From the NCBI GenBank assembly GCA_009927665.1, contig RFMM01000183.1, forward strand, positions 1 to 56,949: 56,949 nt of DNA, in the 5' to 3' direction. How positions within the stretch are numbered: position 1 is the first letter of the stretch; each line of letters starts with the position of its first letter. The notes under the pieces are model-generated. The model was not told the DNA's origin, searched no databases, and saw nothing but the letters and a program-made list of their open reading frames with translations. This DNA is from Actinomycetota bacterium (lineage in GTDB: Bacteria; Actinomycetota; Acidimicrobiia; Acidimicrobiales; Ilumatobacteraceae). The position numbers and the translations under genes were made by a program. Shown one piece after another: positions 29,874 through 34,723 of this stretch.

Positions 29874-30980
29874 CTACTTCAGAAAGTCGGGGATGTCGTC
29901 ATCGTCGTCGTCGACTGTGTCGCTGCCGAAGATTTCGCGAATACGCGAGCTTCCCCGACCAGCCTCTGGTCGAGCAGCGCCGCTCGTGGCCGTGTCGCCG
30001 CGCGTGCCGACTCGACCGGCGCCAGAATCCCAGCGCTCAAAGCCTGAGGCGATGACGGTGACACGCACCTCGTCGCCGAGATCGTCGTCAATCACCGCGC
30101 CGAGAATGATGTTTGCGTCTTGATGCGCGACACGCTGCACCGTCTGGGCGGCTTCGTCGAGCTCAAACAGCGTCATATCTGACGGACCCGCAACGTTCAA
30201 CAGAATGCCTCGTGCACCCTCGATTGCGGCTTCAAGCATGGGTGACGTCACTGCGGCCATGGCGGCGTTGGCAGCGCGCTTGTCGCCGCTCGCCACACCG
30301 ATGCCCATCAACGAAGAGCCCGCGTTGAGCAGAATCGTCTTCACGTCGGCAAAGTCGGTGTTGATGAGACCCGGTGTCGTGATGATGCCTGTGATGCCCG
30401 AGACGCCCTGCATCAGCACCTCATCGGCCTTCTTGAACGCGTCAAGCAGCGTTGTCTTGTCAGTGGCAATCGACAACAGCTTCTCGTTCGGAATCACGAT
30501 CAGCGTGTCGACTTTCTCTTTCAGTTTCGCGATGCCGGCATCGGCTTGAATCGCACGACGGCGACCTTCGAAAGAAAACGGACGCGTGACAATGGCGATG
30601 GTCAACGCACCTTCTGCGCGCGCAATTTCGGCGACGATAGGTGCAGCACCTGTACCAGTGCCGCCACCTTCACCAGCCGTGATGAACACCATGTCAGCGC
30701 CAGCCAACTGTTCTTGAATTTCGTCTTTGTGTGCTTCTGCCGCTTGTCGACCAATCTCCGGGTCGGCACCAGCGCCGAGACCACGCGTCAGGTCGCGACC
30801 GATGTCAATCTTGTGGCTGGCATCACTCATGATGAGTGCTTGCGCGTCGGTATTGATTGCGACGAAGTCAACGCCACGCAGCCCGGCATCGATCATGCGG
30901 TTGATTGCGTTGACGCCGCCGCCGCCGATTCCCACCACTTTGATGACTGCAATCGGCGTGTTTTGCGAACTACTCGGCAT
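29874..30980 (-). CDS. ftsZ: Cell division protein FtsZ
   Basis: [55 protein letters not shown]-terminal DDDIPDFLK peptide. Confidence 0.99.
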
Positions 30981-31068
30981 GTTCCCTTTAACCCCCAAGT
31001 TGAGCATGAGGCTCACGCTCTAGTACAGGCACACTAGTCACTCGCGGCACCCGCCACCCAATGGCGCA

Positions 31069-33306
31069 TTAGGCGTTCTGCACGACGGCCTGACCGCTCG
31101 AGACGTCGATTGACACGATGAACTTGGGGTCTTGCTGCGCGAGCACGGTCGCAACGACGACCAACTTGTAGCGCAAGTCGACCGGTGCGCCCATCTTCAC
31201 GACCGTGCCGGTCTTGAGGGTCATGCCGAGTTGCTCGGGTCCATCGACGTTGAGGTGCTTGACTCGCTCTCGCACCCCATCTGGCAACGCGACAGCGAGC
31301 TGTGCCGCCCCGACATAGACGGGCGTCGTCACCGTGCCTGCCGCCAGGTTCGGACCCACACCCTCAATCTTGAGGAACTGCGTCGGCTGGCCTTCAAGCA
31401 CCTGCAAGACCCGACCGTCACGATCGAGCACCCGTGAACGATTGTCGACACCGACGAACCACGCCACCGGAGAGCGCTCATCGATCTCAATGACGACACG
31501 ATCGGGCAGATACCAGGCGAGCCTCGCACTACGCACCCACGGGTCACCTTCGAGTCGTCGCTTGGCTGAGTCGAGATCTGCCGTGAACACACTGGCGCCG
31601 CTCAACGATTCTTTGACGCTCTCGAGCAGCACGGCGTCGGTGTAGGTGAGACCAATCACTTCGATGCGGCGTACCGCAAAGATCGGTGATGCGAGCACGA
31701 CGAGCGTGAGCGAGAGCAACACGATGACAACCCCAAGTGCCACAAGCGGCGACACCCGTCGCAACCGCAACCAACGTGGTAGTCGACGCCGCGTCAGGCG
31801 ATCGTCGACGATGACCGCTGCCAACGACTCGTCATCGACTACGCCGGTGCGCGGGTCGGCGAACGGGCTCGTTGGATCGATGGTGATGCTGCCCGATCGT
31901 GCCTCGTCGACGGCCGGAATCGCTGCTGAACCCTCGGTGCGTTCATGCGGCAAGCGCAGTGCCGTGTCGTCGATGACCACGGGGCTTCGTGGAGCGCTTG
32001 CGGTGGTGACGGCAGTGATGTCGACGACGGGGGCAACAGGAGTGTCGCCCGATGTAGCGCCCGACGTAGTGGCGCGTGTGTCGGTCGCGGGCGTTGCGGT
32101 CGCGGTCTCGCCTGTTGGTCGTGCGGTCTCGACTGTTGGTCGCACGATCTCGCCGGTCGGTGCGAACAGTTCAGCGAGTTCTGCCACCGCATCATCGGGC
32201 AGCGGTGGCGCGATCGTCACGACACTGAGGGTCTCATCGCCAGCAAGCGGACCAAAGACGCGATCGAGAGCTGTCGTCGCGCCGTGTTGCGCGCCCGATT
32301 GCGCGCCAAGCTGGGCGCGGTCAGGTGTTGCCCCTGCAGCTTCGGCCGTAGTCGAAGTGAAACCCACCAACCGCACTTCGCTGCGCAGATCGATGCCAAG
32401 TTCGTCACGCACACGGCCGCGCACGTGCGTCATCACCGCAACGACATCATCGGCGCTTCCATCAGGGTCGCATTGAATGAAGTTCGCGTGTTTCGTCGAC
32501 ACCTCGGCCGTGCCGATGCGAAAGCCCCGCAATCCGAGACGATCGATGATCGCCCCTGACGAGCCACCTCCTGGCTCGGGGTTGACGAACACCGATCCGG
32601 CGTTCTGGCCACCGGGCTGGTGTTCACGGCGCCACCGCACGATCTCCGCCATCTCTGCTTCGCTGGCGGTCTTGTCTCCCCACGACAACGCGAACGTCGC
32701 CGACAGCACCACGTGCTCAGGGCCGAGATCGCTGCCGCGAAATCGCAACCCGAGGTCGCTCGCTTTGACGTTGGCGACGATGCCCTTGCCGAGGTGGAAG
32801 ATCTTCACCACTTCAAGGCTCGAGGCCATGTCGCTGCCGTGACCACCAGCGTTCATGCGCACTGCCCCACCGACCGAGCCCGGAACCCCGACACCCCATT
32901 CGAAGCCCGTGAGGCCGCGTGCCGCACACTGTCGCGCGAGCACCGGCAGCGGCACAGCACCACCCGCAACGACGCGCGGCACAGCCGGAGCCTGAGGCAA
33001 CACGATGTCTTCGGCAAACTCACCGAGCACCAATGCCAAGCCCTCGAAGCCGTCATCAGACACCAGCAGATTGCTGCCACGACCAATCACCAAGAGTGGA
33101 ACTTGTTGCTCACGCAAGGCGCTGCTGACGGCGTGCAAGTCATCGATCGTGCGCGCCGTGACCAAGAGACTCGCAGGGCCACCGACCTTGTACGTCGTGT
33201 ATGGTGCGAGATCAACGTCGCGTCGCACGCGTGCGCCGAGCAAGATGCCGAGACGGTCGATTGCCCGAGTGCGCCGCGTGTAATCGTCGGTGTCGTCAGC
33301 GGCCAT
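31069..33306 (-). CDS. murB-ftsQ: MurB-FtsQ fusion: UDP-N-acetylenolpyruvoylglucosamine reductase joined to FtsQ POTRA division protein
   Basis: One uninterrupted 745-codon ORF: MurB (YTTYKVGGPASLLVTA, GRGSNLLVSDDGFEGL, GVGVPGSVGGAVRMNAGGHG, NAGSVFVNPE, STKHANFIQ, LRSEVRLVGF), Thr/Pro/Ala-rich linker, one TM (SPLVALGVVIVLLSLTLVVL), POTRA (FAVRRIEVIGLTYTDAVLLESVKESLSGASVFTADLDSAKRRLEGDPWVRSARLAWYLPDRVVIEIDERSPVAWF). Confidence 0.93.
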   Translation of the reverse strand: MAADDTDDYTRRTRAIDRLGILLGARVRRDVDLAPYTTYKVGGPASLLVTARTIDDLHAVSSALREQQVPLLVIGRGSNLLVSDDGFEGLALVLGEFAEDIVLPQAPAVPRVVAGGAVPLPVLARQCAARGLTGFEWGVGVPGSVGGAVRMNAGGHGSDMASSLEVVKIFHLGKGIVANVKASDLGLRFRGSDLGPEHVVLSATFALSWGDKTASEAEMAEIVRWRREHQPGGQNAGSVFVNPEPGGGSSGAIIDRLGLRGFRIGTAEVSTKHANFIQCDPDGSADDVVAVMTHVRGRVRDELGIDLRSEVRLVGFTSTTAEAAGATPDRAQLGAQSGAQHGATTALDRVFGPLAGDETLSVVTIAPPLPDDAVAELAELFAPTGEIVRPTVETARPTGETATATPATDTRATTSGATSGDTPVAPVVDITAVTTASAPRSPVVIDDTALRLPHERTEGSAAIPAVDEARSGSITIDPTSPFADPRTGVVDDESLAAVIVDDRLTRRRLPRWLRLRRVSPLVALGVVIVLLSLTLVVLASPIFAVRRIEVIGLTYTDAVLLESVKESLSGASVFTADLDSAKRRLEGDPWVRSARLAWYLPDRVVIEIDERSPVAWFVGVDNRSRVLDRDGRVLQVLEGQPTQFLKIEGVGPNLAAGTVTTPVYVGAAQLAVALPDGVRERVKHLNVDGPEQLGMTLKTGTVVKMGAPVDLRYKLVVVATVLAQQDPKFIVSIDVSSGQAVVQNA
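32104..32166 (-). repeat. 21-bp in-frame tandem repeat (3 degenerate copies) in the MurB-FtsQ linker
   Basis: Plus strand: GGTCTCGCCTGTTGGTCGTGC / GGTCTCGACTGTTGGTCGCAC / GATCTCGCCGGTCGGTGCGAA, encoding the heptad series APTGEIV-RPTVETA-RPTGETA. Confidence 0.9.
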
Positions 33307-34723
33307 GTGACAATTCTTCTCGTCGCGCGACCACTTCGTCTGGCAGGGTCTCGATGTCGCCGCAACCCATCGAGACGCACAGATCGCCGGGGCCAACCTC
33401 GCGGGCGACAAAATCGATCAGTTCGCTGCGTTGGGGAACCCATTCGACACGCATCTGCGGGTGCGCGCGACGCACGGCATCAACCACGAGTTCGCCGGTG
33501 ACGCCGTCGATTCGTTCGGTGCCCGAGGCGTAGATGTCGGTGATCACGACAAGATCGGCAGAGACGAACGAGTCACGGTACTCGTCGCTCATCAACGCCA
33601 TGCGATGAAACCGGTTCGGCTGAAACACCGCGATGACTCTGCGCCATGTGTCGCTCTCGTCGCGCGCCGCTGCAAGCGTCGCCACAATCTCTGCAGGAAG
33701 ATGCGCGTAGTCGTCAACGAACGTGGCACCATCATGGTGCGCACGAACCTGAAAACGTCGGTGCACGCCCGAGAAGGTGTCGACGGCTGCTGCCGCGACC
33801 ACAGGTGACACACCGAGAGCCTGCGCCATGGCAAGTGCGGCAAGAAAGTTGCGCACGTTATGCAGGCCGCGCAACGGCAAGCGAACGGGCACACTGTCGT
33901 GTTCACTGCTGCCCCACCGAGCGACGAAATGGGCAGCACCGGCCGCAAAGCGCACGTCGGTGGCACGCACCGTGGCTGTCGGCGAGATGCCATAGGTGAT
34001 GGCGTCATGCGCGGCAACGAGTGATGCCGCTGCCGGGTCGTCAGCGCACACGACACGCGGACCATCAGTGGCAGCCAACATTGCATCGAACGAAGCCGTG
34101 ATACCCGCCAACGAGCCGTGTTCATCGAGATGATCGACGTCGATGTTGGTGAGAATCGACGCCCGCGCTCTGATGGCGAGGTGGCTCGAATCGCTCTCGT
34201 CGGCCTCGAGCACAAAGAGTTCGCCGCCCCAGTGTGCACTGGCCGGCAACTGCGGCACGTCGGCACCGATGAGCCAACCGGGGTTGACTCCCCCGGCACG
34301 CAACATCATCGTCAACAAGCTGGTGGTGGTGGTCTTGCCGTGCGTACCGGCCACCGCAACGGTGCGTGCGTGCGGCGTAATGGCACCAAGCATTTCGGCC
34401 CGTGTGAGCACGGTGATGCCGTTGGCCGTGGCCGCCTGTAACTCGAGATTCGTCGCGGGCACGGCAGCCGATGCCGTTACCACGTCACACCCATTGACAA
34501 CGTCGGCGCGATGCGGCACGTTCACGGCGATGCCACGCTGACGCAGGCGCGCAAGTGTCTCGCTCTCGCGCATGTCGCTGCCCGATACGCGATGGCCCAT
34601 TTCCGCCAAGATGATGGCGATGGCGCTCGTACCAGGGCCGCCAACACCCACGATGTGCACTCGTCGTGGCGCCGCCAGCAGCGATCGCAAGTGAGCGGGG
34701 TTCTGCGAGGCGCGAGCGACCAT
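33296..34723 (-). CDS. murC: UDP-N-acetylmuramate--L-alanine ligase
   Basis: VHIVGVGGPGTSAIAIILAEMGHRVSGSDMRES, VAVAGTHGKTTTTSLLT, VLEADESDSSHLAI, TNIDVDHLDEHGS. Confidence 0.96.
   Translation of the reverse strand: MVARASQNPAHLRSLLAAPRRVHIVGVGGPGTSAIAIILAEMGHRVSGSDMRESETLARLRQRGIAVNVPHRADVVNGCDVVTASAAVPATNLELQAATANGITVLTRAEMLGAITPHARTVAVAGTHGKTTTTSLLTMMLRAGGVNPGWLIGADVPQLPASAHWGGELFVLEADESDSSHLAIRARASILTNIDVDHLDEHGSLAGITASFDAMLAATDGPRVVCADDPAAASLVAAHDAITYGISPTATVRATDVRFAAGAAHFVARWGSSEHDSVPVRLPLRGLHNVRNFLAALAMAQALGVSPVVAAAAVDTFSGVHRRFQVRAHHDGATFVDDYAHLPAEIVATLAAARDESDTWRRVIAVFQPNRFHRMALMSDEYRDSFVSADLVVITDIYASGTERIDGVTGELVVDAVRRAHPQMRVEWVPQRSELIDFVAREVGPGDLCVSMGCGDIETLPDEVVARREELSHGR

Follow-up and report, generated by a model that had tools for sequence, protein, structure and literature searches.

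In Verrucomicrobia, MurB is fused to MurC, and the fused protein rescued E. coli murB and murC mutants (PMC4803751). Other described fusions are MurG/MurC in Cellulomonas gilvus and FtsW/MurG in Kribbella flavida (PMC4929429, Figure 3), MurE-MurF in Bordetella (PMC6420597), and MurC/Ddl in Chlamydia. It has long been asked why bacterial genomes keep mur and fts genes together. One answer, the idea of 'genomic channelling' (Mingorance et al. 2004, as cited in PMC7761207), is in the summary given by the citing paper that this helps precursor synthesis to be assembled where the cell divides.

Here we describe a gene in which murB and ftsQ form a single reading frame, located in a 56,949-nucleotide stretch of DNA (the window) from a draft genome of the Ilumatobacteraceae (contig RFMM01000183.1, assembly GCA_009927665.1). 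It joins two dcw neighbours in one uninterrupted frame that is conserved within a lineage. A search of mostly open-access papers found no description of a MurB-FtsQ fusion, which is not among the MurE-MurF, MurB-MurC, MurG-MurC, MurC-Ddl and FtsW-MurG pairs, and we class it as a dcw gene fusion that brings together a new pair.

Results

The fusion gene occupies 31069..33306 on the minus strand, starting with the ATG at 33306 and ending with the TAA at 31071-31069, and its 745 codons plus stop form an uninterrupted frame encoding 745 residues. The preliminary description gave the coordinates and length correctly and did not state the strand, which is minus. Residues 1-317 (32356..33306, minus strand) form the MurB part, where Pfam places FAD_binding_4 at 46-161 (E 3.9e-17) and MurB_C at 217-314 (E 7.5e-25), and the NCBIfam MurB equivalog PRK13905 exceeds its cut-off over residues 25-316. 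A sequence search against solved structures likewise matches this half to MurB proteins (4pyt, 3.6e-42). Aligned to the solved structures, the MurB half retains Arg190 (FRGS), Ser238 (AGSVF) and Glu310 (LRSEVRLVG), the established catalytic residues of MurB, and together with the two domains and the equivalog score they place it in the MurB family. The FtsQ half has the architecture of the FtsQ/DivIB family, a single N-terminal transmembrane helix (residues 520-538, 31693..31749, minus strand) followed by a POTRA_1 domain (residues 543-611, 31474..31680, minus strand; Pfam E 4.7e-8) and an FtsQ_DivIB_C beta domain (residues 621-735, 31102..31446, minus strand; Pfam E 5.8e-6), and it matches an FtsQ of a divisome complex among solved structures (25hr, also 8bh1; 1.6e-4). 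All four Pfam domains exceed their gathering scores. Each half is complete with its motifs intact, and the single open reading frame of the preliminary description, with a full MurB, a linker, one transmembrane helix and the FtsQ POTRA/beta region, is borne out by the frame itself and by the four-domain architecture found in one protein.

An AlphaFold2 model of the protein, built from an alignment of 21 rows, is confident at both ends (pLDDT mostly >90) and of low confidence over most of residues 332-515. Foldseek returned 4pyt as the best match for the MurB part of the model (TMt 0.91) and the FtsQ fold for the other part (6h9o, 5z2w, 8hhf). The model contains the helix at 520-538, a hydrophobic stretch that is preceded by an arginine-rich segment. 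On the positive-inside rule and the known topology of FtsQ, MurB would lie in the cytosol and the POTRA/beta domains outside, so the coherent topology proposed earlier for the fused protein, with MurB cytosolic and one membrane-spanning helix, holds up. It follows from this FtsQ topology that MurB would be membrane-anchored.

The gene sits within a normal dcw cluster whose order along the minus strand is rsmH, ftsL-like, ftsI, murE, mraY, murD, ftsW, murG, murC, murB-ftsQ, ftsZ, YggS-like and SepF-like. These names were assigned by eye from the translations; murC, murG, ftsW, murD, mraY and ftsZ were also queried and found their relatives where expected. Upstream, murC (33296..34723, minus strand) overlaps the start of the fusion gene by 11 bases in a different frame, and ftsZ (29874..31016, minus strand) follows downstream as a separate gene. 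The genome yields one MurB_C match and one POTRA_1 match, both inside the fusion frame, and a search of it for a second murB or ftsQ copy found none; the fusion gene is thus the only detected source of MurB and FtsQ in this genome. The same single matches recur throughout the genus, except in one genome with a contig ending inside the gene. An FtsB/DivIC-like gene is present elsewhere in the genome, and two MreB paralogues are retained in the genus. The murF gene lies outside the dcw cluster, and its copy in the genome of the window (G000, contig C214:1-986) is divided between two overlapping frames where the contig begins, probably through a draft-assembly indel. In a plasmid collection, no place covered 80% of the query.

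We then compared the locus across 61 relatives and 222 genomes of the family, extracting the loci and testing true stop-to-stop frames by domain searches. Single full-length matches occur in three genera (designated g1, g4 and g6), and the other genera mostly give two separate matches. A single frame encodes MurB and FtsQ in 12/12 genomes of g1, 27/27 of g4 and 20/20 of g6 in which both halves are readable, which makes 59 of 59 testable genomes across three Ilumatobacteraceae genera, with no reversal to separate genes among them. Throughout this set the Ser and Glu motifs are present in 59/59 and the Arg motif in 58/59, the remaining row being cut by a contig end. Contig ends also truncate two loci (L013 of g1 and L053 of g6), and four incomplete genomes gave partial matches only and were left out (G083, G212) or gave no match (G067, G206). 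No one-frame MurB-FtsQ was found at the loci examined from other genera of the family. Open-frame lengths had suggested fusions in genus g13 and among high-GC relatives as well, but genuine stop codons separate the genes there, and these candidates were rejected. A scan of 150 genomes across the phylum with POTRA_1 led to 15 long-frame loci that were read, of which 0 encode MurB-FtsQ.

In a tree of MurC, MurB and FtsQ from 63 genomes, g1, g4 and g6 form a single clade (SH-aLRT 99) and the fused state changes once, and a tree of MurC and FtsZ alone, both outside the fusion, recovers the identical clade (99), again with one change. Both trees were made by a short search and individual branches are somewhat uncertain; together they indicate a single origin of the fusion, in an ancestor that the three genera share. 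The route was probably loss of the stop codon between neighbouring murB and ftsQ, joining them in frame. In part of g13 (L096, L106, L110, L115), murB and ftsQ share a frame with a lone TAG between them. These four loci stand one base change away from a murB-ftsQ fusion and are a plausible visible example of the route; since g13 is not the sister group, they illustrate a possible path and not the ancestor. In two other draft genomes of g13 (L123 in G093 and L124 in G092), murB appears broken over several frames, which may be real or an assembly error.

Between the two halves lies a mostly disordered, Ala/Thr/Pro-rich linker of ~202 residues (318-519; 31750..32355, minus strand), comprising the junction and the native cytosolic tail of FtsQ. 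Unfused FtsQs of the family mostly carry a long cytosolic N-terminal tail with a helix motif, such as DVPADVLDELTTAF (L067), HVPDHVLDELQTAF (L103) or ISPEVLEELSAVF (L019), and VVIxDD-like stretches. The same elements stand between MurB and the transmembrane helix of the fused proteins: in the window, the family helix motif LPDDAVAELAELF (residues 369-381, 32164..32202, minus strand; helical at 371-380 in the model) is accompanied by VVIDD (residues 443-447, 31966..31980, minus strand), and the corresponding helix reads LSDEVLAELKDAF in g4 and VSDEVLEELREAF in g6. Of 101 family tails, 86 contain the motif, whereas shuffling the tails leads one to expect 0.9; this comparison gives scale and not a strict probability, because the motif expression was written after viewing the sequences. 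It was found in 0/7 loci from outside the family, and the tails of g13 are short and lack the helix. The earlier proposal that MurB replaced the cytosolic N-terminus of FtsQ therefore fails, as fused and unfused proteins of the family have the same tail and helix motif; judging from these shared motifs, the linker is the native tail and not new sequence, and MurB was placed before an intact FtsQ. The cytosolic FtsQ tails of many Ilumatobacteraceae have a short conserved helix motif near VPxxVLDELxxAF.

The linker evolves as coding sequence in the fusion frame. In pairwise comparisons dN is well below dS, for example 0.07 and 0.50 (L011/L012), 0.071 and 0.83 (L021/L028), and 0.002 and 0.19 (L015/L044); this purifying selection extends to the linker segments before and after the tail motif, and linker lengths differ by whole codons. 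We also scanned the linker for internal starts (ATG, or GTG/TTG with a Shine-Dalgarno-like sequence). Candidate starts are scattered, with none shared from one genus to another, the window copy has none by this criterion, and a conserved internal FtsQ start was rejected accordingly.

Other joins occur within the same gene order. A MurG-MurC fusion is present in 10/10 g4 loci showing both genes (L055-L058, L060, L062-L066) and in one g6 genome (L050). At these loci it lies directly upstream of MurB-FtsQ, such that four dcw genes encode two proteins. All 7 g2 loci read carry a MurC-MurB fusion, and 3 of these are MurG-MurC-MurB triple fusions (L067, L068, L069) with linkers of ~17 residues, the L067 frame encoding 1164 aa on the minus strand. 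In another family of the order, a plus-strand frame of 830 aa from base 550 encodes MurC-MurB (L130 in G354); it has a long branch and is likely an independent event. Fusions with differing break points imply that joining along murG-murC-murB-ftsQ happened several times in the family.

Discussion

We consider it likely that this is a genuine MurB-FtsQ fusion of single origin, made as one polypeptide, that it is the sole detected MurB and FtsQ of the cell, and that its MurB is membrane-anchored and moves with FtsQ. That an assembly or sequencing error joined two genes in a draft genome would be suggested by the fragmentation of this genome into 268 contigs, but we give this reading practically no weight: every one of the 59 testable genomes has the open frame, 58 of them assembled separately from this one and mostly 48-73% identical to it in protein, and no stop or indel splits the genes in the linker of any of them. 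It is also improbable that two proteins result, with FtsQ made additionally from a start within the linker or the linker cut after synthesis. The linker is long and predicted to be disordered, and some genomes have scattered in-frame ATG, GTG or TTG codons within it; against this stand the lack of a start shared across genera or meeting the scan criterion in the window, and the in-frame selection on either side of the tail motif. Close relatives encoding two proteins with a start in the linker, which would have told against the fusion as first described, were not seen, same-genus relatives being fused throughout. Leaderless internal starts or proteolysis of the linker may occur.

A more substantial alternative, though still an unlikely one, is that a genuine fusion was nearly neutral, fixed by drift or compaction, with a tether that has no role in placing or regulating MurB and a product that serves the whole cell. 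The small genomes of the three fused genera (1.0-2.2 Mb), the other dcw fusions of the family with their different break points, the retention of MreB-type elongation, and the arrangement in part of g13, where loss of a stop alone would suffice, are all in keeping with such a history. Against it stand the absence of reversals in 59 genomes, even though the stop and start codons required form easily, and purifying selection on both halves and the tail; under either, the linkage itself could still be neutral. Beyond the anchored fusion that we favour, we regard as rather doubtful the stronger proposal that MurB works on FtsQLB/FtsWI, its placement or activity following divisome assembly, with the tail helix docking one more cytosolic protein, either a division protein or a Mur protein.

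If the favoured reading is correct, murB-ftsQ would yield one polypeptide whose MurB half, presumably active in the fused state, reduces UDP-GlcNAc-enolpyruvate in the cytosol to give UDP-MurNAc. The native flexible FtsQ tail would join MurB to the transmembrane helix with a reach of ~200 residues, and the outer POTRA/beta domains would bind FtsB/FtsL, placing MurB with FtsQLB. MurB would then go where FtsQ goes, in part at least to the division site, a septal enrichment that is suggested by the behaviour of FtsQ in model bacteria. Because the genus has two MreB paralogues, elongation probably also calls for precursor outside the septum, and UDP-MurNAc, being soluble, could diffuse to the machinery that carries it out. 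Precursor synthesis confined strictly to the septum is thus unlikely to be the full account, and a lineage without elongation, needing precursor at the septum only, is unsupported given those paralogues. In model bacteria FtsQ is scarce, so fixing MurB to it 1:1 may carry a cost alongside a gain; any benefit of the tether is putative.

In these genera of small-genome aquatic actinobacteria, two neighbouring genes have become one, so that an early precursor enzyme is covalently joined to a divisome scaffold; this happened a single time, and all three genera have retained it. This makes the idea of genomic channelling testable, and points to MurB functioning, or at the least being tolerated, when membrane-anchored in a fixed ratio to FtsQ. 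Were MurB indeed coupled to the divisome, supply of the first committed cell-wall precursor would be part of the division machine.

The nearest comparison is with other Ilumatobacteraceae, whose separate murB and ftsQ have the same gene order, orthologous domains and the same FtsQ tail motifs, and differ in the stop codon between the genes that the fusion lacks. The Bordetella MurE-MurF and Chlamydia MurC/Ddl proteins resemble MurB-FtsQ in having peptidoglycan precursor enzymes within a fused chain, but they are enzyme-enzyme fusions without a membrane anchor or divisome part. As in MurB-FtsQ, the Verrucomicrobia protein joins MurB to the product of a dcw neighbour in a lineage-specific manner; there MurB is paired with the soluble enzyme that acts next in the pathway, whereas its partner in MurB-FtsQ is a membrane division protein. 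Both the Cellulomonas gilvus MurG/MurC and the Kribbella flavida FtsW/MurG proteins are, like MurB-FtsQ, actinobacterial dcw fusions, and the latter also combines a membrane division protein with a precursor enzyme, so that MurB-FtsQ is not the first fusion of this kind. The two nevertheless differ in what they connect: FtsW/MurG unites a membrane enzyme with the last, lipid-linked step, while MurB-FtsQ unites an early soluble enzyme with a non-enzymatic scaffold.
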